24,953 nucleotides of DNA, taken from a virus. The translations under genes were made by a program, and so were the position numbers. This document shows positions 369 through 21,059 of the stretch, piece by piece. Below the pieces are notes generated by a model that saw only the letters and a list, made by a program, of their open reading frames with translations, was not told where the DNA came from and searched no databases. Position 1 is the stretch's first letter, and each line of letters begins with the position of its first letter. The stretch is taken from IMG/VR virus record IMGVR_UViG_3300038585_000086, positions 1-24,953 of that record. One strand, given 5' to 3'.

Positions 369-3300
369 ATGGGTTCGATTAACAAATTACTTCCACGCTC
401 TCTAAACACAGATGATGATGAGCGTCTAATCCAGGCAACTGAGATGACGGATGCACAGAACATCCGTGTGTCTATTGATGCGGAGGAGGATGCTCTCGTA
501 CTTAAGAACTCCTGGGGTAATGTACAGCGTTCTGCTACGATAGAGAACGGCTCTTTTCCTGCTGGTCAGAATGTTTGTATAGGCGCAGTTGGAGATGACA
601 CACGAGCACAAGTGTATTACTTTGTTTGGAACAGCGGGAGTAATCACACTATATTTAGATACGACCAGAACGCAAAAAAGACATACATCGTATATCAAGA
701 TGAGGTGCTAAACTTCGGTAAGGAAGGATTTGTGTATGCTTCAATAGTTAGGCTTTCAAATAACAACACGTTGCTTTATTTCAACGATGGCGTAAACGAG
801 CCGAAGAAGATTAACGCTACGTTGTCAGAGCAGAGCATGTCTGGAGCGGGTATATACGCAGGCACATTCCGTAATGGGACAAACCAACAGCGCCTAAACT
901 ACATCACTGTAGCCAAGCAGCCCCCCTTGTCTGCACCCACGATTACCTTTTCTAACAACGCTGCATACGCACAGAACGACATATTTGAAAAGAACTTTCA
1001 GTTTGCATACCAGTACGAGTACATAGATGGAGAGCACAGCGCATTGAGCCCATACTCTGAACTATCTGTATCAAAGTCCCAACTAAAGGACGGATTCATT
1101 AACGCTGGTGCAAGAAACTATTACAATCAGATTAATATCGCTGTGTCTAACTCTGAGTTGGATGTAGAAAACATTAATGTATACGGGCGTATAGGAGACA
1201 GAGACGCTGCGTTCTTTTTGATTGACACCATACCAAACGTAAACGGATCTGGAACTCAGACTATAGGGTTTAGAAACGACTCCAACTACATAGGTCTATC
1301 GGCAACGGTGCAAGATAAGTTCTACGACAACGTACCGCAAAAAGCAGATAGCCAAGCAATATCTCAAGGAAGATTATTCTACGGCGCATACACAGAGGGG
1401 TATGACAACCTAACAGAAATGGATGTGCAAGCGCTACCAAACTATTACGATAAGCCAAACACATACGAAATACCTGTGTCGTTTATAGGATATTCTAAAG
1501 GAGACCCCTTTAGTGAAACAAACGTATTCTTAGGTGGTGGTTGTTTTAATATTGATTGTTCTTCTATACCTAATCCAGTTCCAGAGGACTCAAAGGTTCT
1601 ATTGTCTTTTTCGTGGAACGACGGAGCCGTAACCATACGCAACATACTCGGTAACAACAAACACTTTGTGTTTACTGATAAGTTACCAGGTGTTAAGATA
1701 TATTCAGATCCAGATGGAAACAACAGGCTGAATGGCATTGGTGGTGGTTACAATTTCTCTGACGAACTTGAAGTGCTTGGTGGTATACGCTCTATTATAG
1801 ATGGTGTAAACAATACCAATGGAATCAACGTAGATGGAACCTTGAACATGCCTCCTAACGTAAGGTTTGTTACACAGAAAAGAACATCAGACACCAGAGA
1901 GGAGACTATACCAATACGCAAAATTAACCAGGGCATTAAGTGTGTGAGTAGCGGTATACAGGTTAGGGAAATCATAGATATTCCAAAAGGCTCTACCAGA
2001 AAGCAGGTGCAGGATATTATCAGAAACAAAATTATTGGCCTATACCCAGTTCAACTGACGCCACAAGAAGGTGAAGCCGGCTTTAGCGGAATGAGTACTG
2101 CTGGGGATACTCCTTCAAATGGAGAGACAGGCGCTTTTGCTGGCCAGGGCGACATGTGGGTACAGAGAGTTAGTAGCGATGAGACCCCTCAGTTTGTGTC
2201 AACACCTGGTATTGATTATTACGAGGTGACTTATAACAGAGTTACAATGCGATTGGATAAAATGACCTTCGGCACAAAAGAAACAGAGGTCTTAACTGCC
2301 AACGCTACATCCTCTCAGTTTGATATTATAGAGAGAAACATAGACGGCCTATCATCTGATATAGTAGGTGTAAACCTGGTTCCAACAGCAGCGGGTGATT
2401 ATGTAACTATGAACAAGCAAACCGGTAAAGATGCATTAGTTATAAGAACCGGCGCTTATGTAACACAGGGCGGTTCGTTTATGGTTGTTTCAGATGACAT
2501 GGATGGAACCCGATGCTTTAAGTCTGGTTCAAGCCATGAACTTGGGTTATTATACTTTGACGACAAAGGCAGACCATCTGGTGTTCAGCCTCTGGAGAAC
2601 GAGGTCTTTGTTCAGCATACAAACGACCGATCTAATCAGAACAACCTGGACGGAAGCGCAGATATTGTATTACGTATTTCACACAAAGCACCAGATTGGG
2701 CGGAGAGATACAGCGTTGTCTATGCAGGACAAGGCTCTGTCATAAACAAGGTGCAATACTCTATAGGTGGAGCGTACCTTGCCTTGAATGATAACGAGGC
2801 TGGTTCTTTTGGTTCTTCCCAAAACATATACCTCTCTTTAGGAACTCTTCAGAGCAGGGCGAATTCCTTTGATAATCAGTTAGGAGCGATGGTAAACTAT
2901 GGGTTTGCCGAAGGGGATAGAATTAGAATTGTTAGATACGGAGAGGACCAAAAGGAAACCGCTACATGGAGAGTTTCTAAAATGGTTACCCTTCTTGCTG
3001 ACCCGGCGACCAACCCTTTGTTGGATCGTAGTTCTAAGGCCGCTATTCAGAATACCACAGGAGACTTCTTAGTTATAGAGGATAACGAAACCCCTTACTG
3101 GAACACAAGCAGTATACTCAATAGTCAATCCAGATGGAATGAGAAATGTGTTATTGAAATCTACAGAGAGTCTGATGCATTTGAAGAAACATTCTACTAT
3201 GAAATAGGTGAGAATTTTTCTGTAGACGCTAATGGCACCCACCAAACACAGCGATCAGGAACCTCTGTTAGTATTAAGATTGAATCGCAAACCACACTTG

Positions 3301-5441
3301 CAATTGTAGCCGAGGTTAACAAGAAGATATACAAGGGAGACCGTATAGAAACAACTGGCGGCGACTACATCGAAGTAGGTAACGTAATACCTAATGATGA
3401 CGCTACCTATCCTTTTAAATTTTATGGAGTTGCGCAGGCTGGTACAGTCTGGACACCTACGAATGTATATAGCATGACTGTAACTAATCCTCAGTCTGTT
3501 ATTCAACTAAACCAAGGTGATTCTTACTTTAGATTACGAACGCTGTTCTACGGGAGCGCTCCACGTAAGGGTGACGTGTGGAGAAACATGGCTGTAGCCT
3601 TCTCTCAGAACGCTATAGTAGATTTTATCGAGGACCCACGAGTTAGTGATTTCTACAAATCAGATTACCAGTCTCTAGGTAAGAGTTTTGCATACCTTCC
3701 GGATATTACACGTATCAAGAGGTACGGCTCTATTACATACTCTGACCCGTTTTCTTTTGAGAACACCAAACTGGGACTGTCTTCGTTCAACCTTACGCAG
3801 CAAAACTTTGCAGATGCATCGTACGACTATGGTGCAATCAAGTCTCTGGTTCCTTACGATCAGTTCCTATATATGGTTCACGAACGCAGAGCAGGTATTG
3901 TTCCTGTAAACAGAAACATCTTGACCGCGAACGATGGTGAGTCTTTGACTGCTACTAACGCAGTGTTAGGGCCGGTTAAATACTATACAGGAGAGTACGG
4001 GTGTAATGATAACCCAGAGTCAGTTGCGTGGTATAGAGGATATGTGTTCTTTGTAGATGCAAAAGCAGGCAAGGTAGTTAAAATCAACTACCAGTCTGGA
4101 CTGGATGTAATCAGTGAGCAGAACGTAGATGCATTCTTCAAGAGCAAGATGTTCTCTACATCAACCACAGCGAAGAACAGAATGTATCGAGCAGGCGTTG
4201 ACCGAGAGAACTACGAATACATCATCAGTTCTCCTGCGCTGTATACAAGCCAAATAGATATCAATGACAGTTGTAGCGGAAACACTGCGACAGGATACGC
4301 CAGAACCAATGAGGATGGCACCATCATAAACGTCAATGCTGTATACGACAACACGCTGACTTTTAACTTTAACAGCGACCCAAGAAACTGGGAGTGTGCT
4401 GAAGATGACTGGGATGATTCGGGTAAGGGATTACTTCTGATTGACCAGTTAACCAACAATGCAATTGTAGGTATGTCCGAAGACATGGACCCTACGATTA
4501 CCGGTACACTTCAGAACGTACCTATACTGCTAACATCTTCTGCATACAACGCATTCCACACAGGTGTGTATAGCCAGATCAACCAAGAGATTACAGCAGA
4601 TGCAGATGCTCAGTCTACATTTACAATTACCAACACCAGTGAAACCCTTGGAGGGTTTAGTATTGCGTACGACGTGCGTTCTAACTACTGGAGCACACGC
4701 TATTCTTACATAGCAGAGACAGTGGTTGGGTTATCAGACAGGCTATACACCTTCTCTCGTGGCCATATTTATGAACATAGTCCAGACGCTACCCGTAACA
4801 CATTCTACGGAGCATCGGGCGATAGTATTATTGAGTGTATATCCAACTTCAACCCGTCTATGGTGAAGGTATATGAGGCCATGAGCCTTGAAGGTAACAA
4901 CAAAAACTGGACAGTAACACTAACCAATAGTGACCAAACAAGCACAATCGCAAACTCAATATGGCAAGAGAAGGAGAACTTTTATTATGCCCCAATTCAC
5001 CAAGACTCAAGCAACAACATCGACTATACTGCAACTGCCAATGTTAGTTCCCTTAGCGGAACGTCTGAGGTATTCGGAGTCGGAACAGTTGCATCCATAG
5101 CGACGGATAAGATTACATTTAAGAACGCTATCAACAGCATAGGCTTCCCTGTAGGTAACACAACAGCGTTGTTTAAGGTAAGTGGTACCAATTTGGTACC
5201 GTTAAATCTTTATGCTGTATCGGTTAGCGGAGAGAAAGAACTTGAGTGTCATGCTACAGTGAGTGGATTGGTGGCTGATGATGAGGTAGTCTTGATTGCC
5301 AACTCATCAATAGAGGGGGACTCTATTAGAGACTACTACTTGAAGGCAAAACTTGTAAACTCCACAACCTCAGCACACGAGTTGTATGCTGTAAACTTTA
5401 TATATGCTAAGAGCAACCTGCACAACCAGCAGGGACAATAG
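369..5441 (+). CDS. Large tail nozzle / stabilisation-type structural protein
   Basis: This 1690-aa protein has no signal peptide or membrane segment and is rich in Asn, Ser, Thr and Tyr, as expected of a beta-rich virion protein. It starts MGSINKLLPRSLN. Around residues 212-235 it has AYQYEYIDGEHSALSPYSEL, a pattern I associate with P22 gp10/T7 gp12-like tail nozzle and stabilisation proteins of podovirus-like and crAss-like phages. Around residues 1205-1240 it has YTGEYGCNDNPESV followed by YVFFVDAKAGKVV, which looks like a beta-propeller blade and recurs in the same proteins. It is about twice as long as classical nozzle proteins, so extra domains are likely. ATG at 369 lies three bases after the preceding stop, with no Shine-Dalgarno. 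An alternative is a tail fibre or other adhesin. The structural assignment is firmer than the nozzle assignment. Confidence 0.65.
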   Translation: MGSINKLLPRSLNTDDDERLIQATEMTDAQNIRVSIDAEEDALVLKNSWGNVQRSATIENGSFPAGQNVCIGAVGDDTRAQVYYFVWNSGSNHTIFRYDQNAKKTYIVYQDEVLNFGKEGFVYASIVRLSNNNTLLYFNDGVNEPKKINATLSEQSMSGAGIYAGTFRNGTNQQRLNYITVAKQPPLSAPTITFSNNAAYAQNDIFEKNFQFAYQYEYIDGEHSALSPYSELSVSKSQLKDGFINAGARNYYNQINIAVSNSELDVENINVYGRIGDRDAAFFLIDTIPNVNGSGTQTIGFRNDSNYIGLSATVQDKFYDNVPQKADSQAISQGRLFYGAYTEGYDNLTEMDVQALPNYYDKPNTYEIPVSFIGYSKGDPFSETNVFLGGGCFNIDCSSIPNPVPEDSKVLLSFSWNDGAVTIRNILGNNKHFVFTDKLPGVKIYSDPDGNNRLNGIGGGYNFSDELEVLGGIRSIIDGVNNTNGINVDGTLNMPPNVRFVTQKRTSDTREETIPIRKINQGIKCVSSGIQVREIIDIPKGSTRKQVQDIIRNKIIGLYPVQLTPQEGEAGFSGMSTAGDTPSNGETGAFAGQGDMWVQRVSSDETPQFVSTPGIDYYEVTYNRVTMRLDKMTFGTKETEVLTANATSSQFDIIERNIDGLSSDIVGVNLVPTAAGDYVTMNKQTGKDALVIRTGAYVTQGGSFMVVSDDMDGTRCFKSGSSHELGLLYFDDKGRPSGVQPLENEVFVQHTNDRSNQNNLDGSADIVLRISHKAPDWAERYSVVYAGQGSVINKVQYSIGGAYLALNDNEAGSFGSSQNIYLSLGTLQSRANSFDNQLGAMVNYGFAEGDRIRIVRYGEDQKETATWRVSKMVTLLADPATNPLLDRSSKAAIQNTTGDFLVIEDNETPYWNTSSILNSQSRWNEKCVIEIYRESDAFEETFYYEIGENFSVDANGTHQTQRSGTSVSIKIESQTTLAIVAEVNKKIYKGDRIETTGGDYIEVGNVIPNDDATYPFKFYGVAQAGTVWTPTNVYSMTVTNPQSVIQLNQGDSYFRLRTLFYGSAPRKGDVWRNMAVAFSQNAIVDFIEDPRVSDFYKSDYQSLGKSFAYLPDITRIKRYGSITYSDPFSFENTKLGLSSFNLTQQNFADASYDYGAIKSLVPYDQFLYMVHERRAGIVPVNRNILTANDGESLTATNAVLGPVKYYTGEYGCNDNPESVAWYRGYVFFVDAKAGKVVKINYQSGLDVISEQNVDAFFKSKMFSTSTTAKNRMYRAGVDRENYEYIISSPALYTSQIDINDSCSGNTATGYARTNEDGTIINVNAVYDNTLTFNFNSDPRNWECAEDDWDDSGKGLLLIDQLTNNAIVGMSEDMDPTITGTLQNVPILLTSSAYNAFHTGVYSQINQEITADADAQSTFTITNTSETLGGFSIAYDVRSNYWSTRYSYIAETVVGLSDRLYTFSRGHIYEHSPDATRNTFYGASGDSIIECISNFNPSMVKVYEAMSLEGNNKNWTVTLTNSDQTSTIANSIWQEKENFYYAPIHQDSSNNIDYTATANVSSLSGTSEVFGVGTVASIATDKITFKNAINSIGFPVGNTTALFKVSGTNLVPLNLYAVSVSGEKELECHATVSGLVADDEVVLIANSSIEGDSIRDYYLKAKLVNSTTSAHELYAVNFIYAKSNLHNQQGQ

Positions 5442-5462: not shown

Positions 5463-6545
5463 ATGAAACACGGTAAAAAATTTTTTGTAGGCGGCTTGTT
5501 GAACTTAGGAGCAGGTCTCGGCACCGCTGCGTATGGCGCATATCAAGAGCGCCAGGCAAAAAAGAAAATGGCCCAGGCAGATAGTCTCGCTCAAGGTCCA
5601 ATCAGATCACAAGCAGCAAGACAAAGAATTGCTCAACAAGAAAGTGATGCGCAATCTGCAATTGATTCTACTCTACGTGCCCAAGCAACAGCGGCCGAGC
5701 AAATCGCACAACAAGGTGGCTCACGGGGATTAGTTTCAGCAACACCAGGACTCATCAGAGCAACAGACTTAGCGTCACAAAATGCAATAAACCAATTCGG
5801 TCAAAGAAATGCAGCCATTAGACGGGCTGAAGAGTCTGACGCTATGGCAACACAGCGTGCTGATGCAACCGCTAACATGGACAGGCTCGCACGTGCTGCA
5901 GATGCTGCCAGAAAAACCACAATGACTGGTATTGGTCAATCATTAGCGGGTGTTGCAGAGATTGCTGGTGATTACAAAAAGAAACCTAAAGAAGACCCGA
6001 CGCCAGAGAGCACAAGCGTTTTAACAAAACCTTTAGATAGTCAGTTGGTTGACGCAAATCTTGAACGTGACCCAAGCGATCAATCTATTGTTGCATTAAA
6101 ATCACCAGCAGACGCTGCAGCCGACCAGGCGCTACGTCCAAGAGACCAAATGATTTTCTTTGAAGACGAATTAAACAAAGCATCATCACCTACTTTACCT
6201 GTTGACAACAGTATGGCTGGTCTTACACTCGGAGAAGCAGATGCAGCAACAGAAGGAATGGACCTTGACCTAAGCAGACCAGAAGAAGAAAGGTCTGTGC
6301 TTTCAACAGGATTCGCACGAGGCGGTGAGGTTGAGGAGCCAGTAGATAAAACACCAGGAGAGTTCGACCATGACGACAACCCTATTGACATCATGCAAGA
6401 GGGTGCTAAGATTGGCGAGATGACAGGTGGTGAGTACATTTTTAACCCAGAGCAAGCGGCGGAGATGCGCAAACTTTCTGAAGAAGGTGACAGCGAACTA
6501 CATCAATTCATTCGTAACTTACTTAGCAAAGAACAATTTCAATAA
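5463..6545 (+). CDS. Ejection-type internal virion protein, Ala/Gln-rich
   Basis: The 360-aa protein begins with a basic start and a small-residue hydrophobic stretch (about residues 8-28, GGLLNLGAGLGTAAYGAY). A long Ala/Gln/Arg-rich helical region follows (about 30-160), then a Pro/Asp/Glu-rich, probably disordered middle. The C-terminal segment (about 310-360) contains GEMTGGEYIFNPEQA and ends in a helix. A glycine-zipper N terminus plus a long Ala-rich helix is typical of podovirus ejection proteins such as T7 gp14 or P22 gp7. The GGEYIFNPEQ-type ending recurs in minor virion proteins of uncultured phages. It sits between the nozzle gene and two larger ejection-type genes, as in T7-like and P22-like virion operons. 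Its stop overlaps the next start (TAATG). No enzymatic motif was seen. Confidence 0.6.
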   Translation: MKHGKKFFVGGLLNLGAGLGTAAYGAYQERQAKKKMAQADSLAQGPIRSQAARQRIAQQESDAQSAIDSTLRAQATAAEQIAQQGGSRGLVSATPGLIRATDLASQNAINQFGQRNAAIRRAEESDAMATQRADATANMDRLARAADAARKTTMTGIGQSLAGVAEIAGDYKKKPKEDPTPESTSVLTKPLDSQLVDANLERDPSDQSIVALKSPADAAADQALRPRDQMIFFEDELNKASSPTLPVDNSMAGLTLGEADAATEGMDLDLSRPEEERSVLSTGFARGGEVEEPVDKTPGEFDHDDNPIDIMQEGAKIGEMTGGEYIFNPEQAAEMRKLSEEGDSELHQFIRNLLSKEQFQ

Positions 6546-8332
6546 TGGCTGATACATCTACATTTATGCCAGTAGGCGAATTGCCAGTGATTGACTATGG
6601 TGCGGTATACAGAAACGCCAAGGCTCGCCGGGAATTAGAAGAAGAAAAGAAGTTAGCATACCTCAACCAGTTCCAACAGGAGCGCGGTGCTTTTACTCCT
6701 GGTCTGCAGGACCAACTGCAAATGGAGTGGGATGCCATCGAGCAAGACTTGGATCAGGGAGACATGTCTTTTGAAGCCAAGGCCCGTAGACAAAAACTGT
6801 ACAGCACATACAAGCAACACGCAGCAGATGCTTTGACATACGCTGAGTCAATCAATGGTTTGGAGGCATCCATTCTTGCTGACCCAACTCAGTATAATGA
6901 CCCTGCTGCTATCATGCAGCAATTAGAACAAGCCAGGTCTATTCCTGTAGACATGAATATGATTGGCAATGCGACGAGTCAACTTCCTCGACTTGGAGAG
7001 TTCAGACGATTTGCGCTCCCAGAGATTGCACCAAACGCAGCAGCGGGTATGATTCTACAGAACCTTAAGTCATCGGGTGGTTTTCAAAACTTCTACGACA
7101 TGGCTGGTAAGGGTGCGCTAGACCCAGAAGCGGTAGCAAACTCTGTATCTGCATGGTTCGGCACAAACTCCTTGTCACAAGAAGAAGAAGACCAGGCTAT
7201 TGCATACGTGTTACACCAACTCGGTGGTTTGTCTGGCAACATGGAGGACTTGTCTAAGATTAAGAACCTTGACGAAGCACAGCGTGAAGAGTACATCGGG
7301 ATGTATGCTCAGTATGTGACCAACTCTCTGAACAACATGCTTGCAACAGACATTGAAACAGAGAAGGAAAAAGAACAGCGTGAGTACGCTGCGTACAGGA
7401 GAAAGTTAAACGCCCAAGCACGAATACAAAGAGCCGCTGCTGAAGAGAAGTCTGCGGCAAACGCATTTGCTCTATCTCAAGGTGATGTTTCGTATGCTCC
7501 TGCTATTACAGAAAAAGGAAAACGAGGCAACTTTATAAAAACGGGAGAGCCAGAATTGGTTAATGCTGGATTTGTATTGCACTCAAAGATTGAGGGCTCG
7601 CAGCCGTTCTTCAGAGATGAACGAGGCAACCAGCGTTACATAACATCTGTCGGTGTTAACGATAAAGGTGAGCCGTACGCCGTGGTAAGAAGCAAGCAAT
7701 CTGTTATAGAGAGCGGCGGTTCTTCAACGCATTTAGCGCATGAAGTTGTTCCGATGAATGAGATACCTTTAGGCGGATTGAGTAATGCATCCCAGGCTAA
7801 CAAGATACGCAACACCTTCCAGCAGATGCTTCCGTATTACCAGCAGACTATGATGGAAATGAATCCAGAAAAACCAGCACCTGGTCCTGCTGGCCTTGCT
7901 CAATCACAGGCTTGGCTTATGAATGCCGAACCAGAAAGAGATGCTATAGATGCGAACATATCACAAATACTTCGTGCAGAGTCTCCAGCACCGAAATCGT
8001 CTGAAGATTTGAGCATGTCTCGAGCCGAATATTCCTCTATGGGTGATGAAGAAAAAATTGATTACTTCGTAGACTACGCTATTAGCAACGGAGCGCTACA
8101 AGGGGGGTACGCTCAGTATGAAAAACTAAGCCCAGAACAAAAGGCCGAAGTTGCTATACAGGGTATGAATGCAATATTCCAAAACGATGATTTACCAGAC
8201 AATATTATGGAGGGTGATTACACCAGCCTATGGTTTCTAACGGAAGATGAAATCAAAAAACAGATGAAGGCGAAGTCCCTTAAGGACCAAAAAGATATGA
8301 CGGATAACAGTAGAGCCTTCCTCATGCAATAG
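6545..8332 (+). CDS. Putative internal virion (ejection) protein
   Basis: The 595-aa protein is rich in Gln, Glu, Ala and Met and is largely helical by composition. It has no membrane segment or signal peptide. Its N terminus carries PVIDYGAVYRNAKARRELEEEKKL and a run of amphipathic helices to about residue 300. The central part is shorter and more beta-like (about 310-410, FFRDERGNQRYITSVG). The acidic C terminus has LSMSRAEYSSMGDEEKIDYF. No family was recognised with certainty. Position between two other ejection-type genes and the helical composition make an internal virion protein likely. The start overlaps the upstream stop as TAATG, so the two are probably translationally coupled. It could instead be a scaffold or tail-associated protein. 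Confidence 0.5.
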   Translation: MADTSTFMPVGELPVIDYGAVYRNAKARRELEEEKKLAYLNQFQQERGAFTPGLQDQLQMEWDAIEQDLDQGDMSFEAKARRQKLYSTYKQHAADALTYAESINGLEASILADPTQYNDPAAIMQQLEQARSIPVDMNMIGNATSQLPRLGEFRRFALPEIAPNAAAGMILQNLKSSGGFQNFYDMAGKGALDPEAVANSVSAWFGTNSLSQEEEDQAIAYVLHQLGGLSGNMEDLSKIKNLDEAQREEYIGMYAQYVTNSLNNMLATDIETEKEKEQREYAAYRRKLNAQARIQRAAAEEKSAANAFALSQGDVSYAPAITEKGKRGNFIKTGEPELVNAGFVLHSKIEGSQPFFRDERGNQRYITSVGVNDKGEPYAVVRSKQSVIESGGSSTHLAHEVVPMNEIPLGGLSNASQANKIRNTFQQMLPYYQQTMMEMNPEKPAPGPAGLAQSQAWLMNAEPERDAIDANISQILRAESPAPKSSEDLSMSRAEYSSMGDEEKIDYFVDYAISNGALQGGYAQYEKLSPEQKAEVAIQGMNAIFQNDDLPDNIMEGDYTSLWFLTEDEIKKQMKAKSLKDQKDMTDNSRAFLMQ

Positions 8333-8337
8333 ATATA

Positions 8338-8345
8338 AATTCAAT
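8338..8345 (+). promoter_or_regulatory. AATTCAAT translation-leader motif
   Basis: AATTCAAT stands two bases before the ATG of the 1921-aa gene in a 15-base gap that has no Shine-Dalgarno. The same octamer precedes two genes on the other strand (at 22629-22636 and 23957-23964). It may be an A/T-rich, unstructured initiation context as used by Bacteroidota. Chance in an A/T-rich gap is possible. Confidence 0.25.
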
Positions 8346-8347
8346 AC

Positions 8348-11300
8348 ATGGAACCACAAGAGCAAGAATTCTTAGCAGCCCTCGAGGATGCTTACAACAG
8401 AGGTATAACCTTCGAGCAGATGGAGGGGAACATCAGTGATGACGCAATGGCCATCGCGCAAGATTTCTTTTCAAAAAAAAAAGATGGTACCGCAGGTTCG
8501 CAGATCGCCACTCCTGGGGTATTAGCATCAGAGTCTTTGGGAAGACCTATGGAGTCTCCTTCTACTCAACTCGAATCTGAGTCACAGGCGATCGCAAGCG
8601 GTATATTCCCTGCAATTGAGTCCGCAAAAGAAAGAGGGGTGACCCTTGATCAAATGAAGGACAACGTAACTCCAGAGGTATATACCTTAGCGCAGGAATA
8701 TTACAAATCAGTTGATGGTGCGGGCAGCAAGTTTCTTCCTGCAATGCAGGACCACAACCTTATCATTGATGAAAACCCAAGTGAATTAGGTAGACTGTGG
8801 AATAGAGCGGCTGCTGGCGGTATGCTTGCTGACGCTATAACCCAGGGTGAGATGACTGGTGATTTCAACTGGGAATCCATAGCCTATTACAACCATATCA
8901 TACAGCGAGATGCTCCAAAAGACAGTGATTACTTGTCGGATCAAACCGGCAGCGCTGTAGATGATTTTGTTCTTGACGTTGTACGAACTATTCCAGAGTC
9001 TATTATATCAATGGGACTCGCCTGGAAGTCCGGGGGCGAGGGCGCGGCCGCAGGAGCAGGAATAGGTGCAGGAGTTGGTTCTTTTGTCCCAGTAGCAGGT
9101 ACAGCGGTAGGAGCAAAAACAGGTGCGACAATCGGGTTCTTTGCAGGAACATCTCTTGCCCTTGAGTACGGCCACTCATTTGTGGATGTGCTTAGAGAGC
9201 AAGGTGTAGACGTTACAGATGTTGATGAGTTAAAGACCGCAGTTCAAGACCCGGAGTTACTTTCAGCAGCAAGAGAAAAGGGGCTCAAGCGTGGTATCCC
9301 TATCGCTATATTTGATGCTATATCTGGGGGTGTTGCCGGTAAGGTAGGAAGCAAGGCTATCCAAAGCGTGGGTAAAACAGCCACAAACAGAGCATTGAAA
9401 GTAGGTGCAGCAGAAACATTGGTTCAAGCAGCGCTCGGGGGTACTGGTGAATTGGCTGGGCAGGTGATATCGGGTGAAGAGATTCGACCACGTGACATTG
9501 CGCTCGAGGCATTTGCAGAATTAGGACCCGCAGCACCTGTGATGGCATATAGACTTACTGGTCGTATCGGTAAAACACCAGGAGAGTTGGAGTACATGGA
9601 CTGGGCAGAGCAACAGGATCAGGGCAAACTCGTACAGGCAAATGAAATTTCTTTTACACTTAACAATGGTGAGATTTCCAGTCTTGACAACGAGATGTCG
9701 AAACTAAAAGAATCACAAAAGCAAGACCCCACCACAAAGAAGGCTGTTGAAGCCAAGTTACGTAGGTTAAAGGACGAGAAGTACAGGCTACTTAAGGAGT
9801 ATTCCGAAAAAGTTATGGGCCTCGATGCGGTAGCGCAAGCCCAGGCTAATGAGTTGACCTCGGAGTTGATGACAGCAGCAGAGGTTCTTAAAAAAGGGGA
9901 CATAAACGCAGAAGAAAAGGCAGCCATCGAGGAAGAGATGGGGAACAATGCAAGGGAACTTGATAATATAATCAACAAAAGAGAACCAAGTGATACGAAA
10001 ACTGGCACCGAAGAAGTACCGAGTGGAGAGCAAGTCGGGCAAGAACTTGGGGACGTACCCGAGTCGCAAATTAGCAGAGCGCAGGCTCAGATTAGTGGAA
10101 TACTTCAAGAACGCGCGCAAAACTTAGAGCGCACATCAAGACACGCTACTTCAGAGCAGGCGGCTGAAAGATTTAAAACAGCAAAAGGAAAGTTCTTCAA
10201 CCTGTTTGACAGGAATGATGCGGCTGCGCTTCAGCAGATGCTCGAGAACAGAGAATGGGCAGACGGTCAGCGCATATCACCAACAGAGCAGCGTACTCTC
10301 AACAAGTTAATTCTTGCAAGTGAAGCGTTCGCTAAACTGGAGCCAGACTCAAAGCACTTTAATATCGGGTTTGGAAGACAAGGCTATTACAAGGCTGGTC
10401 AAAACGCAGGATATACCAAGAAGAACCTCAAGAACAGTGCTGGTATATATAGCGGGCTTAAAACACAGGCTAAACGAGATAAGATAGGCGGAAACAGAGT
10501 CGCTGTAGAAATACCATTAAGAAAAGAGTCTCTCACGGGACGAGGAACAGCAGACAGATATACCCCACAAGGCACAGCATATCACGAGATTTACCATTCT
10601 ATATTCGCCAAGTTCTTTAACGATAACCCTATTGACTTTAACCAGTTTAGAAAGTTAGTCACACGTCGTTTAAGTGGATCGAGCGTAAAGGAACTCAACA
10701 ACTTTACACAACGCTACTTAGAACGGGATGACATGGACAGCGCAGGCGCTTACAAATCTGAAGAGTTCATGGTGGAACTCGGAGGACTAATGGCTGACGA
10801 ACGTATTGTATTCGAGCCATCGTTCTTGGAGGAAGTAAAGGCTTTCTTGAACGCCATCGTTTCAAAGTTGACGGGTAAGAAGGTTCAGATTTTTGAAGAC
10901 GCTGCTCTTGCAAAAGATATATCTGAATACATGAAGGGTATGGCTAAGGCCGTGCGTGCTGGCGCTGACATCAGCCAGGTGCCCATGTCTGAGCGCTTAC
11001 AAACAGAGCGCTTCCAAAGAAAGAGACCAGAGGCAAGGGAAAGAAAAGAATACGATGAGTACGGGAAAGAAAAATCAACCGGAGATGTAGAGCAGGTACC
11101 CAGTGAAAACGCAGCAGGTATTCCAGATCCAGAGAACTACGAGAAAACATACGACCCTTTAGAGAAGGTGACCGGGTTTATCAAACCTAAGTTCGACAGC
11201 CTTGTAAAGAAGTTAGAGAAAATTCTTGGGGTTAAGCGATTGCGTAGCATTAGAAGAGACGTACTGCAAGCACTTGAAGTTTCTGAGTCTATAAATGTGC

Positions 11301-14113
11301 AGCACATCAATAGATTTTACTTGGCTTTACGTCAAGTGAATAAGATTACCAAGAACATGGAGCCCCAGCAGAGAGAGCGGATTGCTAACCTTGCTAACGA
11401 CTATTTGTTCGGGGAAAACGCAGACACCAGAGATAATGCTATAAAGGAGATACTTAGCCAGAACCCAGAGTTGGCAAAGCAGTTAGGTAGATTGAGTGCT
11501 ATTCGTGCGTCTATGCAGGAGTCTATTCAAAACAGTGCTGTGTTCTCCAATCTAAGTACCGAGTTGCAGGATGTTATCAAGGATAATACAGCGATGTACG
11601 GCACAAGAACTTACCGAGCATTCACTGACCCTAACTTTAAGTTTGACCCACAGTTACGTAGAGCCGCAGAGAAAGCAATGGTAGAAGGTAGCATAATGGA
11701 TATCGCCTTTGACATCGACGAAAACATGACGGACGAAATAGCCACGGACATGATGGACATGGGTCTTAATCCAGAAGAGTTCGATGATGTAGTGATGTAC
11801 GTTGAGGCTACTCAAAAAACAAAGATAAAAAAGCGGGTGAGCGACAGCCTTCGTGGTCTTGAAGAAGGGGCCAAACGGCAGCGCGAAGGATATGGCGAGG
11901 GACTATCCGGTACTCGAGACCTGGGTAAATTGAGATTACCTACTAAGAAGTTCAAGGAAAAGTTAGACTTGCCGATAGAACTAATGGAGTACCTCGGCGT
12001 AGAGAAAGACCCGTATGCTAAGTTCAGTCACACGATTGCCACGCTAACCAACATGGTTCAGCAATTCACCTTGACCGATAGAGTTAATGAGATTGCACAG
12101 CGCAGTAACTTAGGCGACTTGATTCTAACTGGCACCACTATTCGCAACCTTGAAAAGAACTCGCTTAGTTTTTCTCAAATAGTTGAGTTAGGTAGAACCA
12201 TGGGGGTTATACAAAAGGGAGAGTCTCTGGTAGATTTCTACAAGAGATTAGGATATAACGAATTGCTGGACGAACAGGGCAATCGTAAAGGCGACACCCC
12301 CGCTGAGAAAGATGCTGTCCACTCAGCGGTATACGACTTCTATAAAAAGAACTACACAAAAATAGAGGAGAAAAAATCCCCTATGAATGGCAAGGCTGTG
12401 AAGAATGACTTTGTTAGTATGCTAAAGCAGACTCCTCTGTATCAGTCCGACAACAAGGCACTCCAAGCATACTATAAATTGCTACTTCAGATGCGTCGTG
12501 TTCGTGTACTTTACAACACACCTACCTGGCGCAAGAACATCATGGGTGGTTGGTACTTCCTTGCTGCTAATTTTGTGTTGCCGTTCAATAAACACAGAGG
12601 AGGCATCACTGTTATGAAGGACTTGAAGAATCGCTTCAAGAAAATGAAAGACGGTGTGGTTGACTCTGATTTAGAAGTTGTGTTGAACCGAATGGGTGAA
12701 CTTGGTTTGCTTGGTTCTTCTCCTAACATGGGTATGTTCTCAGATATTAACCAGTCATTTATTGACCAAATAGAAGGCGCATCCCCAGACGTAGCATGGA
12801 GTTGGTTGCCGCAAAGAATAAAAGACGCACAGCGTAGAGGTAAGACAAAGTCTGCACGTATAGCGTACCAGTACGGATTCATTGATGACTACACCAAGAT
12901 GATTGCCTATCTCACAAAGCGTGAGAACTTCGCTAAGAGACTTGAATCAAACCCAGAGGGTAAGTCCTACAAAGAACTAAATTCAGAGCAGCAACAGCAA
13001 GTAGATGAGATGACAGCGGAGCGTATCAAGCAGAACATGCCAACCATGTCTCGTATACATCCTTCACTGCGGAACCTATTTAAGTTACCTGTGGGTGACT
13101 TCTTGTCGTTTCGTGTAGAAGCATTCCGTAGTTACTTCAGTATATACAAAAACGCTGTATCGGATTTGTCAATGGCCATGACCAACGAGAACCTAACTTC
13201 ATCACAGCGTGAAGCGTACATGGTAGATTCCGTTGGTACTTTGTCTATGGGTATGTTGTTAGCGACACTATCCACGATGGGTTACCAGGCTATTGCAAAT
13301 ATGTTACTTGAGGACGATGAGGAAGCGGAACTCGCAGAGCAAGCACGTGGTACAAACTATATACTACCACCTTGGATGCAGGGGTCTAACATCGTAGCGA
13401 TAGGCATGGACGATAGCGGTAAGATTCGTTTTGCCAACATGAGTTCAGAAGACCCATACGATGAACTACAGGGCCTTATATTTGGACGTGATGGTATATC
13501 AAGAAACGACCAACTACTAAGCATACTCTCTGACTTCAAGGACCCTAACCTTGCGGCAAGACTTCTGTTTAATCTTGTAGACGGAAAGGATTCTTACGGT
13601 CGTCCTATCTTGGATAACGAAGATGTAAGTTGGGTTAACAGATACATCATTGGTCCAAACCTTACTGATTGGTCTGACGCATATGGTTCGTATGTATTTA
13701 AAGAAACATTCATACCCCCTAACTTGAACTATATATCTCGTGAGTACCGCAAGAGAATGGGCGAAGCAGAGGAGAATCCAGACATAGAACTACAGCCGTT
13801 AGAGACTTCGTTACAACTATCAAAAGCATTCCTTTTCCGTGACTATCCAGTAGATATTGCTAAGCAGTTCTATTACAACATGAGTGATCAGAACTTCCGT
13901 AAGCCATACATTGATATGAGCGACACAGAGAAGGTGAAGAGAAAGGCACGATTGGATGAGGTTGTAAAAGCATACGATTTTGCGGTGAACTATTCTTCTA
14001 AGTTTGAGAATTACAGCATAGCAAACAGCGCCGAGAGTACTATCAAAAGAACATTCAAGGATAGTCCAGAGGAGGTTATGTACGTGTTGTACGGTGTCGA
14101 ACTTCCAGAGTAG
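8348..14113 (+). CDS. Giant internal virion/ejection protein with HExxH peptidase-like domain
   Basis: This 1921-aa protein is the largest in the window. Residues 9-41 and 87-119 are two copies of one helical module (both with RG[IV]T, QM and a later AQ). Residues about 228-270 form a Gly/Ala-rich glycine-zipper stretch that could insert in a membrane. Residues about 430-600 are charged coiled-coil. Residues 746-750 read HEIYH, in the context GTAYHEIYHSIF; 55 residues later, SEEFMVEL (804-811) offers a Glu that could be the third zinc ligand. That pattern fits a zincin metallopeptidase. Residues about 1080-1300 contain a segment like large-polyvalent-protein regions of phages. The C-terminal third has a hydrophobic stretch near 1626-1650. 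Expected role: released into the envelope during DNA entry, with the peptidase acting on wall or envelope. No transglycosylase or RNA polymerase motif was seen. Confidence 0.62.
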   Translation: MEPQEQEFLAALEDAYNRGITFEQMEGNISDDAMAIAQDFFSKKKDGTAGSQIATPGVLASESLGRPMESPSTQLESESQAIASGIFPAIESAKERGVTLDQMKDNVTPEVYTLAQEYYKSVDGAGSKFLPAMQDHNLIIDENPSELGRLWNRAAAGGMLADAITQGEMTGDFNWESIAYYNHIIQRDAPKDSDYLSDQTGSAVDDFVLDVVRTIPESIISMGLAWKSGGEGAAAGAGIGAGVGSFVPVAGTAVGAKTGATIGFFAGTSLALEYGHSFVDVLREQGVDVTDVDELKTAVQDPELLSAAREKGLKRGIPIAIFDAISGGVAGKVGSKAIQSVGKTATNRALKVGAAETLVQAALGGTGELAGQVISGEEIRPRDIALEAFAELGPAAPVMAYRLTGRIGKTPGELEYMDWAEQQDQGKLVQANEISFTLNNGEISSLDNEMSKLKESQKQDPTTKKAVEAKLRRLKDEKYRLLKEYSEKVMGLDAVAQAQANELTSELMTAAEVLKKGDINAEEKAAIEEEMGNNARELDNIINKREPSDTKTGTEEVPSGEQVGQELGDVPESQISRAQAQISGILQERAQNLERTSRHATSEQAAERFKTAKGKFFNLFDRNDAAALQQMLENREWADGQRISPTEQRTLNKLILASEAFAKLEPDSKHFNIGFGRQGYYKAGQNAGYTKKNLKNSAGIYSGLKTQAKRDKIGGNRVAVEIPLRKESLTGRGTADRYTPQGTAYHEIYHSIFAKFFNDNPIDFNQFRKLVTRRLSGSSVKELNNFTQRYLERDDMDSAGAYKSEEFMVELGGLMADERIVFEPSFLEEVKAFLNAIVSKLTGKKVQIFEDAALAKDISEYMKGMAKAVRAGADISQVPMSERLQTERFQRKRPEARERKEYDEYGKEKSTGDVEQVPSENAAGIPDPENYEKTYDPLEKVTGFIKPKFDSLVKKLEKILGVKRLRSIRRDVLQALEVSESINVQHINRFYLALRQVNKITKNMEPQQRERIANLANDYLFGENADTRDNAIKEILSQNPELAKQLGRLSAIRASMQESIQNSAVFSNLSTELQDVIKDNTAMYGTRTYRAFTDPNFKFDPQLRRAAEKAMVEGSIMDIAFDIDENMTDEIATDMMDMGLNPEEFDDVVMYVEATQKTKIKKRVSDSLRGLEEGAKRQREGYGEGLSGTRDLGKLRLPTKKFKEKLDLPIELMEYLGVEKDPYAKFSHTIATLTNMVQQFTLTDRVNEIAQRSNLGDLILTGTTIRNLEKNSLSFSQIVELGRTMGVIQKGESLVDFYKRLGYNELLDEQGNRKGDTPAEKDAVHSAVYDFYKKNYTKIEEKKSPMNGKAVKNDFVSMLKQTPLYQSDNKALQAYYKLLLQMRRVRVLYNTPTWRKNIMGGWYFLAANFVLPFNKHRGGITVMKDLKNRFKKMKDGVVDSDLEVVLNRMGELGLLGSSPNMGMFSDINQSFIDQIEGASPDVAWSWLPQRIKDAQRRGKTKSARIAYQYGFIDDYTKMIAYLTKRENFAKRLESNPEGKSYKELNSEQQQQVDEMTAERIKQNMPTMSRIHPSLRNLFKLPVGDFLSFRVEAFRSYFSIYKNAVSDLSMAMTNENLTSSQREAYMVDSVGTLSMGMLLATLSTMGYQAIANMLLEDDEEAELAEQARGTNYILPPWMQGSNIVAIGMDDSGKIRFANMSSEDPYDELQGLIFGRDGISRNDQLLSILSDFKDPNLAARLLFNLVDGKDSYGRPILDNEDVSWVNRYIIGPNLTDWSDAYGSYVFKETFIPPNLNYISREYRKRMGEAEENPDIELQPLETSLQLSKAFLFRDYPVDIAKQFYYNMSDQNFRKPYIDMSDTEKVKRKARLDEVVKAYDFAVNYSSKFENYSIANSAESTIKRTFKDSPEEVMYVLYGVELPE
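8473..8482 (+). repeat. A10 homopolymer inside coding sequence
   Basis: Ten consecutive A residues encode part of Ser-Lys-Lys-Lys near residue 42 of the 1921-aa protein, just after the first copy of its N-terminal repeat. Such a run is a candidate site for polymerase slippage. One added A leads to a stop after about 37 codons, and one lost A to a stop after about 13 codons. The frame continues intact here, so this copy is not broken. Confidence 0.7.
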
Positions 14114-14119
14114 GATTGG

Positions 14120-14127
14120 TATATTTG
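14120..14127 (+). promoter_or_regulatory. Bacteroidota-type -7 box (TATATTTG) before the lysis genes
   Basis: TATATTTG matches TAnnTTTG and lies in the 18-base gap before the holin-like gene, with four bases (TAGG) before its ATG. No clear -33 TTTG is present. It could start a separate lysis transcript. The spacing equals that at 5451-5463, so the message would begin at about the ATG. Confidence 0.45.
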
Positions 14128-14131
14128 TAGG

Positions 14132-14353
14132 ATGAAGTGGACAGAAATTTTCAAAGAGAGCAACGACTACAATGAGAAGACCGTTATAGGCTTTCTGTCC
14201 TTTGCTATTATGGTCATCGTAATGGTGGTGGATGTAGTCACAGGGTTCTTTGGAAGCCACCTACCTATCAACGACTTTGTCTACAACTCTTTTCTTGTCG
14301 TAACGCTCGGCAGTTTTGGAATAGCAGGACTTGAGAAATTTGCAAAGAAGTGA
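14132..14353 (+). CDS. Probable holin
   Basis: The 73-aa protein has two predicted transmembrane segments (about residues 18-40 and 48-66) joined by a short loop, a hydrophilic N terminus and a short basic C terminus (LEKFAKK). Size, topology and position right after the virion genes fit a small class II holin, which would form inner-membrane lesions to time lysis. Three more membrane-protein genes follow in overlapping order, consistent with a lysis cassette. No endolysin lies beside it. The ATG was chosen because it follows the upstream gene by 18 bases with a TATATTTG box before it. An unrelated small membrane protein cannot be excluded. Confidence 0.55.
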   Translation: MKWTEIFKESNDYNEKTVIGFLSFAIMVIVMVVDVVTGFFGSHLPINDFVYNSFLVVTLGSFGIAGLEKFAKK

Positions 14354-14754
14354 AACAGATACAGCGCATAAAGTTCTTAGCATCCAAAATACGCCACATA
14401 TATCTGTATAGTGACAGTCAACCCACAGAGATTACTCTTGCGGTATGTTTGATTATTCTTTCTCCTTTGGTAACTGTTATGGAGATAGGATGGATGCCGA
14501 TATACAATTTAGTGTGTGTTGGATTTGGTATATTTCAATTGTACTGCATTTCTACCGAGGACTTGCATTGTAGAATGAGGGCAGCCGTTTTAAGCATGAG
14601 CGCCTACATATCTACGTTCCTAATATACACGGTAGAAGGTACTATCTTTGTATCACCCACACACTGGGGCTGGTTTGTTCTCGCCTTTAGTGCATGGGGT
14701 GTGGTTCGTAGATTGAACGCAGAATATTTACACAGAAAAACCAGAGAAAGATAA
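14350..14754 (+). CDS. Polytopic membrane protein of unknown function
   Basis: The 134-aa protein begins at a GTG that overlaps the upstream stop by four bases (GTGA), so translation is probably coupled to the holin-like gene. It has a basic N terminus, then about four hydrophobic segments (roughly residues 27-46, 51-67, 77-93 and 103-121), and a basic C-terminal tail. The segment YSDSQPTEITLAV before the first membrane span recalls a recurrent small membrane-protein family of uncultured phages, without a known role. Membrane topology and position suggest a lysis accessory, antiholin or superinfection-exclusion protein. None of these is shown by the sequence. Confidence 0.6.
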   Translation: MKQIQRIKFLASKIRHIYLYSDSQPTEITLAVCLIILSPLVTVMEIGWMPIYNLVCVGFGIFQLYCISTEDLHCRMRAAVLSMSAYISTFLIYTVEGTIFVSPTHWGWFVLAFSAWGVVRRLNAEYLHRKTRER

Positions 14755-15651: not shown

Positions 15652-16161
15652 TTAGGGTTTCAGTTCGTAATAGGGTGAGTACGCGTGCTTTACGTTCCAC
15701 TCCCTTACTTCTGCCGGTGTGAAATCGGCGAATATGTAATCCTCGGGTGATGTGAACAAGATGAAGAGGACCAGATCTGACTCTTCCTTATCCATGGCTG
15801 GCTTGTTTGCTTTGAATGTTTTCTCACAGGTCTTGATGCTTAGTCCATAGTTCTTATCGGTTGCTTCAACTATGATGTCTGGGTCATCGGTTACGCTCTT
15901 GGTTTCTTTCAACAGCGTTGAGACCGTGTAGCGTATAACTTGTGGTGTGATTTCAAAGTAGTGGCGCATCAGTAACTCGCCAAGTATGCCTATGTATTCT
16001 GTGTAGTATTCCCTCGATACCTCACCAAGTAGTATAGACTTCTTTGTTCCTGTGCGCTGTTTGTGTGTGCCTTCATAGCGCTCTCGGTTAGCCTCAATGC
16101 GCATGAGGGTTAGGTCGTTTGCGTAATGCTTTAGGTATGGCGGTATGGTTAGGTTTTTCAT
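15652..16161 (-). CDS. PD-(D/E)XK-like nuclease, putative
   Basis: The 169-aa protein has a helical N terminus with IGILGELLMRHYF (E62 region), then DDPDIIVEATDKNYGLSIKT (residues 92-111), and later strands and helices DLVLFILFTS and YIFADFTPAEVREW. An early Glu, then P-D, then a strand ending in x-x-K is the core order of PD-(D/E)XK nucleases. Here the residue normally Asp/Glu two before the Lys is Ser (S108-I-K110), so the site is atypical and activity is uncertain. The gene ends the - strand operon and overlaps the glycosyltransferase gene by four bases. It could serve phage DNA processing or host DNA degradation. Confidence 0.45.
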   Translation of the reverse strand: MKNLTIPPYLKHYANDLTLMRIEANRERYEGTHKQRTGTKKSILLGEVSREYYTEYIGILGELLMRHYFEITPQVIRYTVSTLLKETKSVTDDPDIIVEATDKNYGLSIKTCEKTFKANKPAMDKEESDLVLFILFTSPEDYIFADFTPAEVREWNVKHAYSPYYELKP

Positions 16162-17123
16162 GACAGCCCTTCCAATCTCAGTTTGTTTATGGTAGATAAA
16201 TCGTAGTGCTCTTTACAATACTCATACAGATTGTTTCCAAGTCTCTGTGCTTTGCTTAGTGTCATGCTTTCTACGGCATCTTTCCATTCCTTTGGGCTAC
16301 TGCATAGGATGCCTGTCTCTCCGTGCTTTATAACCTCCTTATATGGCGTTACGTTGGATGCTATGATAGCAGTACGTGTGAACCCCGCTTCCACTACCTT
16401 CAGTTCTGATTTACACTTGTTGAATCTTGAGTTCTTCAAGGGGCTGAGGGAAACGTCGAAGAACTTGTACAACTGTGCATACTGAGTAATATCCACGGGG
16501 TTCATCTTATACTTTGCTTTTAATCTATCTGGGTAGTCCATCAAGTTCATGCAGTACAACTCATGGTCCTCGAATGTCACGCCCATCACATCTAAATCTT
16601 TCTGGTGCCCGTTAGCACCAAGGTATCCGAACCTTACTTTATAATCTTTTGGGTTGTCCTTTTCCCAATCAGCCCATTGCTTCTCCTTCTGGTGGATGGT
16701 GTTCGCAACAACCCTATACACAGCGTCGGGGTTAATCTTCTTCATCCTTTCAGCAAGGTATGCTGATGGTGTCCAGATCTCATCCGCTATCTGTATACTG
16801 TCTTTAATAAAGTACTGTTCATTGTTTTTGTAATGATCGTACGCTGGATTGTCTTTTGGCAGTTCCCAATAGTCATCGTTGTCAAGTATAAGTTTGACGT
16901 CGTTGTCTACTAAGAATTGTTTAAAGGATTTAGCATCGGACACTCCGAATCTTCTTGAGCCCACCAAGTGCGAGACACCAGACAGGTCAAACTCTTTGAG
17001 TTGATTAAGGCTGTCGATGAAATGCACGTTGATTCCCTCCTCTTCCTTTAATCGGAGGAAGGGAGTCATCAACCTGTGGTAGTTAATACCGTTTAGTCCG
17101 TCAAGATAAATCAGCGTCATCAT
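16158..17123 (-). CDS. GT-B glycosyltransferase
   Basis: The 321-aa protein has the two-domain look of GT-B enzymes. The N-terminal half includes GINYHRLMTPFLRL (12-25) and LILDNDDYWELP (78-89). The C-terminal half holds the family signature, FNKCKSELKVVEAG (234-247), then TAIIASNVTPYKEVI and HGETGILC, matching the nucleotide-sugar binding region of GT4-type enzymes with the conserved Glu of the EX7E-like motif. It would move a sugar from a nucleotide donor to an unknown acceptor in the cytoplasm. MM at the start allows initiation at 17123 or 17120. It overlaps both neighbours. Phage glycosyltransferases may modify DNA, virion proteins or host surface glycans; the sequence does not decide. 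Confidence 0.75.
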   Translation of the reverse strand: MMTLIYLDGLNGINYHRLMTPFLRLKEEEGINVHFIDSLNQLKEFDLSGVSHLVGSRRFGVSDAKSFKQFLVDNDVKLILDNDDYWELPKDNPAYDHYKNNEQYFIKDSIQIADEIWTPSAYLAERMKKINPDAVYRVVANTIHQKEKQWADWEKDNPKDYKVRFGYLGANGHQKDLDVMGVTFEDHELYCMNLMDYPDRLKAKYKMNPVDITQYAQLYKFFDVSLSPLKNSRFNKCKSELKVVEAGFTRTAIIASNVTPYKEVIKHGETGILCSSPKEWKDAVESMTLSKAQRLGNNLYEYCKEHYDLSTINKLRLEGLS

Positions 17124-19457: not shown

Positions 19458-19769
19458 TTAGCCCCAGTGGTCGGCATAGTCTTCTTCTTTATGTATTTCC
19501 GAATATCCGACAATCTTTTGAGACTTGATGTTGAACACTCTGAAATTTTCTTTCTTGGCTGTGAGTTTAGTTTGGTCCTCTAAAAAGTCGAGGGCCTTCC
19601 GGTCTTTGTTAAGGTGCATCAAATTCTTTGCTCGGCTTACACATTCCATGTCGTGCCACTTATGGATGGACATCTTCTTGCCTCGGCGTGTTTGCCACAT
19701 GATGTCTACAACGTACCAATGAATTGGCTGGCCATCCCGTACTGCTTTTTCTATATCGTATTCTTCCAT
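19458..19769 (-). CDS. Hypothetical protein, 103 aa
   Basis: The protein is basic in its centre with several Trp and Met residues (HWYVVDIMWQTRRGKKMS, KWHDMECVSRAKNLMHL). It has an acidic C terminus ending YADHWG and no membrane segment. No family was recognised. It overlaps the sulfotransferase gene by 19 bases and stands ten bases before the preferred primase-helicase start. Co-expression with replication genes suggests an accessory role, but there is no direct sign of function. Confidence 0.65.
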   Translation of the reverse strand: MEEYDIEKAVRDGQPIHWYVVDIMWQTRRGKKMSIHKWHDMECVSRAKNLMHLNKDRKALDFLEDQTKLTAKKENFRVFNIKSQKIVGYSEIHKEEDYADHWG

Positions 19770-20380
19770 ATGCTTTTGTATAAAGTAAAATCTTCTTTGT
19801 AGTATAAGGCAAGTAGTAGGCCTGTCTCTTTATCTATCGTCCACTGCTTAGAGGTAGTGGTGTTAGTCCGCTGAAGCGGTAAGTCTACGTCTATTTGTTT
19901 ACAGACATAACTCCAATGCGCCTTGAGGTTAGATACATTGCCAATCCATAGTTCTTCATTAAGCCAATGAACTTGCTGATAGGCATTCCTTGGTTGGCTC
20001 CAATGCTTATCGTATACATGGAACTGTGCAAACATGTGTTTGTTTATAACCTTATTGGGTGAGCGTTCGAGATGATGTTCATCGTTAAGCAGCCAATGCA
20101 AGTTGTGTTGATCTGGAAAAGTATAGTCAGCGTTGTAAACGAATGAAGATATGAATCTCTCTTTAGGCTCTCGAACAAAAGCAAACTTAAAATAGGAGTT
20201 CCATCGTTCCTCCCCTGCAATAAGGCGCACTTGGCTTGCAAGTTCATGTCCGTATGGTGGATTACTGTCATCCCCCCTAATGCAGTCGGGGTCTTCGTTT
20301 ATCAGCGCCTCCTCCATAGAGGTGCTTGCGTTCTTTGGGACACGAACAAAAATACATTTAAGTTTATCAGAGATGACCAT
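19751..20380 (-). CDS. Sulfotransferase family 2-like protein
   Basis: The 209-aa protein carries both PAPS-binding motifs of sulfotransferases. The 5' phosphosulfate loop is FVRVPKNASTSM (11-22), and the 3' phosphate motif is FAFVREPKERFISS (66-79). The order and spacing fit the Sulfotransfer_2 (carbohydrate sulfotransferase-like) group. It would transfer sulfate from PAPS to a hydroxyl or amine, probably on a glycan, in the cytoplasm. A GTG at 20383 and an ATG at 20380 are alternative starts; ATG gives the TGATG overlap used here. It sits in an early/replication operon together with a glycosyltransferase and an FkbM methyltransferase. The host must supply PAPS. The acceptor is unknown. Confidence 0.75.
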   Translation of the reverse strand: MVISDKLKCIFVRVPKNASTSMEEALINEDPDCIRGDDSNPPYGHELASQVRLIAGEERWNSYFKFAFVREPKERFISSFVYNADYTFPDQHNLHWLLNDEHHLERSPNKVINKHMFAQFHVYDKHWSQPRNAYQQVHWLNEELWIGNVSNLKAHWSYVCKQIDVDLPLQRTNTTTSKQWTIDKETGLLLALYYKEDFTLYKSIWKNTI

Positions 20381-20835
20381 CACATTAAATTTTTAACAGT
20401 CATTATCTCGTAGTTATCCAAGGTTTCTGGGTTGTCTGTGTATAAGACTACTCTATACTTTAAGTGACGAGCAGATGTTTTTTTCTTTACCATTACCTGG
20501 TCGAGAATCTCAGCCCCTTCCAAGAACTTATTGGTGTATAGTTCGTTTACTCTGCGTCCGTTACTGAAAACATCTATATGCTTCTTGTGTGTCTTCAAGC
20601 AGGCAATGACCGTAGTGTGGTGTCTATTAAATAACTTTCCAAGGTTATGCATAGTGAGCGTAGAGTTCTCTCTCAAGTACGCCCATACCATACAACGTGT
20701 TTCGACCAGGGGTCTGTCCCTACGTGAACTTGTTAAGTCCGAAGCGATTACCCTGTTCAACATACTAAAAGTTTCAGTTGCTTCGTCGATTGCGTGTTGG
20801 TCAATCGTGCGAATGAAATGATATTCGTTACTCAT
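20380..20835 (-). CDS. Stand-alone DnaA domain-IV-like DNA-binding protein
   Basis: Residues 38-87 of this 151-aa protein match the DnaA C-terminal DNA-binding domain: RRDRPLVETRCMVWAYLREN, then LTMHNLGKLFNRHHTTVIACLKTHKKHI. The RHHTTVIACLKTH segment corresponds to the DnaA signature (DHTTVLHACRKI-type) that reads DnaA boxes. There is no AAA+ ATPase domain; flanks are a 37-residue N-terminal part and a 65-residue basic C-terminal part of unknown fold. It may bind origin-like sites of the phage or host, or act as a regulator. ATGA overlap with the gene upstream and TGATG with the one downstream show tight coupling. Confidence 0.7.
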   Translation of the reverse strand: MSNEYHFIRTIDQHAIDEATETFSMLNRVIASDLTSSRRDRPLVETRCMVWAYLRENSTLTMHNLGKLFNRHHTTVIACLKTHKKHIDVFSNGRRVNELYTNKFLEGAEILDQVMVKKKTSARHLKYRVVLYTDNPETLDNYEIMTVKNLM

Positions 20836-21059
20836 TTGTCAATGATAATTCTTTTGTAATAGTTAGGTGCTACCCTTTTAATCTCTCGATAGAATTCGTT
20901 CTCTGCTTCTCGCAGTTTCGATTTAGTTTCCGTGTCGCCTTTGCCCTTGGTTCCGAACGACGTGTGCAACAAGGCTAACGCCTCAAGTTGCTTGTCCACG
21001 TGCGCGCGTACGAGAGGGCACATCTTCGAGCGTGATGCGCTCTTACATACCTTGTCCAT
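20832..21059 (-). CDS. Small basic protein, hypothetical
   Basis: The 75-aa protein is rich in Lys and Arg and mostly helical (VDKQLEALALLHTSFG, SKLREAENEFYREIKRV), with two Cys near the N terminus. No family was recognised. It starts inside the 3' end of the FkbM gene (17-base overlap) and overlaps the DnaA-like gene by ATGA. The charge and helices are compatible with nucleic-acid or protein binding. Confidence 0.6.
   Translation of the reverse strand: MDKVCKSASRSKMCPLVRAHVDKQLEALALLHTSFGTKGKGDTETKSKLREAENEFYREIKRVAPNYYKRIIIDK

Follow-up and report, generated by a model that had tools for sequence, protein, structure and literature searches.

Metallopeptidases housed within the giant proteins that phages inject are already known and are common (PMC5512222): in the survey of polyvalent proteins by Iyer et al. 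(2017), zincins were present in about 36% of these proteins, 12 clades of metallopeptidases (MPTases) were published, and the domains were described as having strands that precede the helix with the HExxH motif, and a glutamate on a later helix (PMC5512222). Among the crAss-like phages, mass spectrometry of PhicrAss001 virions has detected gp45, gp46 and gp47, two mid-size cargo proteins and one giant (PMC10172136). The N4 counterpart of such a three-gene ejection set is gp52-gp51-gp50. In some other short-tailed phages the largest ejection protein, of the T7 gp16 type, carries a transglycosylase.

The DNA considered here is a virus record of 24,953 bases (IMG/VR IMGVR_UViG_3300038585_000086; the whole of it is referred to as the window), itself a fragment, in which an open reading frame of 1921 amino acids with an ATG start and with relatives in IMG/VR (8348..14113, + strand) would encode a giant cargo, or ejection, protein in which a zincin-like domain is very probably present and intact.

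Gene order and the probable ejection set

On the plus strand of the window, the gene of a crAss-type muzzle (tail end) protein (369..5441), recognized by the Pfam profile crAss_MUZ_C (33.9 bits, cut-off 27) and by hhalign with phi38:1 gp97 (E 6.7e-31), is followed by those of a 360-aa protein (5463..6545) and a 595-aa protein (6545..8332), which by their order take the positions of cargo proteins C1 and C2 and have relatives in 21 and 27 of the retrieved loci, respectively, and then by the 1921-aa gene. This is the order that marks a podovirus cargo protein, with the cargo genes placed as in PhicrAss001, and from it we infer, on good grounds, that the phage is crAss-like and short-tailed and that the 1921-aa product would be its third cargo (ejection) protein, the largest of the set. 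The first-pass annotation had already called it an ejection protein, and the name holds in this sense, as it comes from synteny, that is, from being the third gene after the muzzle, and not from the annotation of any tool. The protein is very likely to be a component of the virion; this marine phage would probably carry the giant protein inside its particle and deliver it into the cell along with the DNA, and the host of this crAss-like phage is probably a member of the Bacteroidota. The proteins at the same gene position in phi38:1 (gp101) and in Panino have no HExxH, and thus not every giant protein encoded there has a peptidase.

The end of the 360-aa protein (window 6300-6545) contains the motif GEFDH..NPIDI..EGAKIGEMTGGEYIFNPEQ, nearly identical in a diverged relative (L029), and among the replication genes of the window there are a sulfotransferase, an FkbM methyltransferase and a glycosyltransferase (19754-20383, 21046-21753 and 16161-17123, all on the minus strand). 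Two IMG/VR contigs, 3300021389_000010 and 3300021378_000015 (L125-L134; lengths near 82 and 81 kb), have a common join just past the giant gene; one has two diverged copies of this gene, and in the other a diverged structural half lies beside a part that is 99-100% identical to a 60-kb relative, the pair being either recombinant phages or assembly chimeras.

The HExxH motif and its conservation

The 1921-aa protein has a single HExxH, H746-E747-x-x-H750 (10583..10597, +), when 0.006 would be expected from its own composition. The motif, HEIYH, had been noticed in the first-pass annotation and is genuine, with both histidines correctly numbered; the surrounding stretch, GTAYHEIYHSIF, had been placed at residues 743-754, but its start lies one residue earlier, at 742. 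Scans of IMG/VR gave about 29 relatives, with an identity of 60-100% for those of full length and of about 42% for a diverged group, and a further scan using the domain added more distant members. All relatives whose sequence spans the region keep HExxH, with both histidines invariant, a point on which the zincin reading depended. In a 20-sequence alignment of the domain (mean column identity 53%), H746, E747, H750, E805 and E806 are invariant among relatives down to about 40% identity. At these residues both synonymous codons of His and of Glu are in use among the relatives, and since the codons vary while the residues stay, it is on the residues that selection acts.

His746 and His750 are the two proposed metal ligands and Glu747 the proposed general base; in zincins the Glu of HExxH is needed for catalysis and is not a metal ligand. 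A candidate third ligand had been placed in the segment SEEFMVEL (residues 804-811; 10757..10780, +), and this stands for its invariant Glu805 and Glu806, but not for Glu810, which many relatives replace with Gln and L065 with Asp, and which was dropped as a candidate because of this variation. Glu806 would be the best candidate, because by motif the segment lines up with the NEFMAWGL that follows HELVH in N4 gp50 (the virion RNA polymerase) and with the YEFLAYGM of other phage zincins; in the more distant proteins L030 and L031, HELLH is followed by YEFLAYGM or HEFLAYGM.

Fold and family of the central domain

According to the alignments and the AlphaFold2 models, the zincin-like metallopeptidase domain would occupy residues 634-878 (10247..10981, +). 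The two models, one of residues 575-896 (322 aa; mean pLDDT 71.8, pTM 0.72) and the other of residues 634-878 (245 aa; mean pLDDT 69.8, pTM 0.69), both of moderate confidence, present the same order: a helix, three strands, the HExxH helix, further helices and the helix that bears SEEF; in the larger model HExxH is in helix 166-185 and SEEF in helix 230-242. At the level of secondary structure, and set against the published description, this prediction agrees with the MPTase core (PMC5512222).

Against the PDB, Foldseek gave no match below E 1.7 and no clear zincin, and VIA-align reached a Z of 4.4 at most, to spider-silk domains, the other rows being unrelated helical or globin structures; a putative zinc peptidase, 4l7a, appeared with Z 2.4 and was discarded as within noise. 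Phmmer and profile searches of the PDB sequences gave no match for the protein, the Pfam and PHROGs scans found no peptidase family and none that covers the domain, and no relatives appeared in the bacterial genomes scanned. By hhalign, nothing significant was found between the domain and the N4 relatives, which does not place it in the C1-type clade of the N4 virion RNA polymerase, and the profile comparison with the relatives of L030 gave no significant match either, although the HExxH domain of L030 does match N4 (profile comparison, E 3e-12). The HExxH region of QMP84800, a 3694-aa structural protein of a Flavobacterium elemo-phage, does match the domain, with 30% identity over 117 columns (E 1.5e-6, and 1.9e-5 against the whole protein), while other HExxH segments gave E values of at least 0.04 and three controls without HExxH of at least 0.29.

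Of the marks of a zincin-like peptidase in the broad sense, the domain has an HExxH with a conserved downstream candidate for the third ligand; of those of the polyvalent MPTases it has, besides the predicted core, its location in a large phage protein with domains common to other polyvalent proteins. A zincin fold and the binding of a metal are predicted and seem very likely. To judge by sequence, its most likely place is among the zincin-like metallopeptidases that Iyer et al. (2017) described in polyvalent phage proteins (PMC5512222), where, compared with the profiles of the N4 and L030 relatives and matching neither, it would form a clade of its own. Searches of the open-licence literature found no description of this domain for crAss-like phages.

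The flanking modules

At about residues 225-415 (9020..9592, +) there is a glycine-rich, membrane-like module which hhalign shows to be common to the giant proteins of unrelated podoviruses: L030 (E 2e-18), ctfjg026 (4e-16), Limnohabitans DC33 (1e-14), Xanthomonas CP2 (1e-11), Pseudomonas HU1 (3e-10) and L032 (6e-7). Its hydrophobicity is borderline (best 19-residue mean 1.36), and thus the association with membrane is itself something that we infer. HExxH is found in all six of the other phage groups that have the module (ctfjg026, DC33, CP2, HU1, L030/L031 and L032), a small sample retrieved via the module and not via HExxH, and the sequence contexts of the motif visibly differ from one group to another. 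From composition alone, disregarding how common zincins are in polyvalent proteins, the chance of HExxH, reckoned for five of these groups, is 3e-10; against the 36% background of zincins in those proteins, that of six in six is about 0.002 by our arithmetic. These counts hint that the membrane-like module and the peptidase are linked. In the giant proteins of CP2 (ORF24) and HU1 the module is accompanied by the polyvalent domain LPD22. Those of CP2 (L081, ORF 7146-14582) and ctfjg026 (L079, ORF from 6240) have two HExxH each. At the N-terminus of the 1921-aa protein itself, residues 9-46 and 91-125 (window about 8372-8485 and 8618-8722) are two similar stretches of the form RG[IV]T-QM-AQ-[FY][FY]K, which are also present in the relatives.

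A second module, at about residues 1390-1759 (12515..13624, +), recurs in a polyvalent protein with an ADP-ribosyltransferase from Pseudoalteromonas phage vB_Pun_Y3 (E 8.6e-14 and probability 98 by hhalign, with a query numbered 3 higher than the 1921-aa protein; tblastn E 3e-5), which scores 28.9 bits with the Pfam family ART-PolyVal, slightly below the cut-off of 31.2. Neither of the two proteins that share this C-terminal module only (Y3 and 023Pt_psg01) has an HExxH.

Possible roles of the peptidase

The best overall explanation, to which we would give about an even chance, is that of a cargo protein with a membrane-associated front, a central zincin and the processing of itself or of its neighbours. 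The glycine-rich module would associate with the membrane, the central domain would hold one metal by means of His746, His750 and Glu806, with Glu747 acting as the general base, ahead of a large C-terminal region. During or after ejection with the DNA, the peptidase would cleave the chain that contains it, or else the cargo proteins next to it, and this cut would part the membrane-associated front from the remainder of the 1921-aa protein. Taken separately, the choice of such processing over any other substrate is tentative and falls somewhat short of an even chance: it is favoured over the digestion of the wall because HExxH goes with the N-terminal module and is absent where the C-terminal module occurs alone, and what counts against it is that the N4 virion RNA polymerase is packaged unprocessed despite carrying such a domain (PMC5512222). 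A more general proposal, in which the N-terminal module would depend on a zincin elsewhere in its chain, drawn from different clades in different phages, as a general protease that frees ejection proteins from a membrane anchor at DNA entry, is speculative and unlikely.

The peptidase could also enter the cell as an effector and, early in infection, cleave a host protein such as one of defence or regulation, and here the C-terminal module would matter, as its union with an ADP-ribosyltransferase in Y3 indicates that varied effector enzymes can attach to it; host targeting is among the possible roles mentioned by Iyer et al. (PMC5512222). However, in the sampled proteins it is the N-terminal and not the C-terminal module that HExxH tracks; a host substrate is conceivable, if rather doubtful. 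A structural role for the domain, or metal binding with no peptide cleavage, seems highly improbable: according to a preprint on N4, proteins other than proteases have HExxH as well (PMC12633501), and the packaging of the N4 virion RNA polymerase requires the region that bears the domain (PMC5512222), but Glu747 is as invariant as the ligands.

An opening of the envelope, in which the domain would cleave the cross-bridges of peptidoglycan, or proteins of the envelope, where the DNA passes, has in its favour that wall enzymes are located in the ejection proteins of other podoviruses, and that a structural lysozyme gene is annotated in HU1 directly upstream of its giant protein; but this same lysozyme has a gene of its own next to that of the HExxH protein, which makes the two jobs look separate, and Pfam shows no likeness of the domain to the families of peptidoglycan peptidases, all of which leaves this role improbable. 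The contrast that had been drawn with the transglycosylases of podovirus ejection proteins is borne out in that the Pfam scan finds no lysozyme or transglycosylase domain in the 1921-aa protein, which is thus not of that type, but not as a novelty, given the precedents for injected metallopeptidases (PMC5512222). The accompanying argument, that no separate endolysin is seen, has no weight, as the window covers no more than a fragment of 24.9 kb; a related 60-kb record, both ends of which fall inside one same gene, as for a circular genome, has a DUF5675 gene (34581-35033; 96.3 bits) that may or may not be the lysis enzyme.

For the processing of the chain itself or of its neighbours, as for the other roles, E747 and E806 are precise residues with which to ask if the peptidases that phages inject target themselves, their partner ejection proteins or the host, a question that dates from the survey of polyvalent proteins. 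The N-terminal module, for its part, points to an element common to the ejection proteins of distant phages.

Comparison with known systems

Like the MPTases of polyvalent proteins (PMC5512222), the domain would have its HExxH on one helix and its Glu on a later one, within a giant multidomain phage protein; unlike them, it has no match to the profile of the N4-type clade and is unseen by Pfam and PHROGs. With the C1 domain of N4 gp50 (PMC12633501) it has in common the pair of motifs, HELVH and NEFMAWGL in N4, and the place in a protein that is both third and largest in a set of three ejection proteins, whereas no RNA polymerase domain is recognized in the 1921-aa protein and hhalign detects no relation. 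The T7 gp16 type is likewise the largest ejection protein, and differs in the lysozyme or transglycosylase domain that Pfam does not find here. The elemo-phage protein QMP84800 has the matching HExxH region and a related muzzle gene upstream, but is much longer and is without the N-terminal module. As in PhicrAss001, with its cargo proteins gp45-gp47 (PMC10172136), the giant gene comes third, after two of mid-size, in a window that has a muzzle homologue; in PhicrAss001, however, the giant cargo proteins are related to RNA polymerase, and none of this kind is recognized in the window. A crAss-like phage may thus bear a peptidase giant where crAss001 has its RNA-polymerase-related giants.
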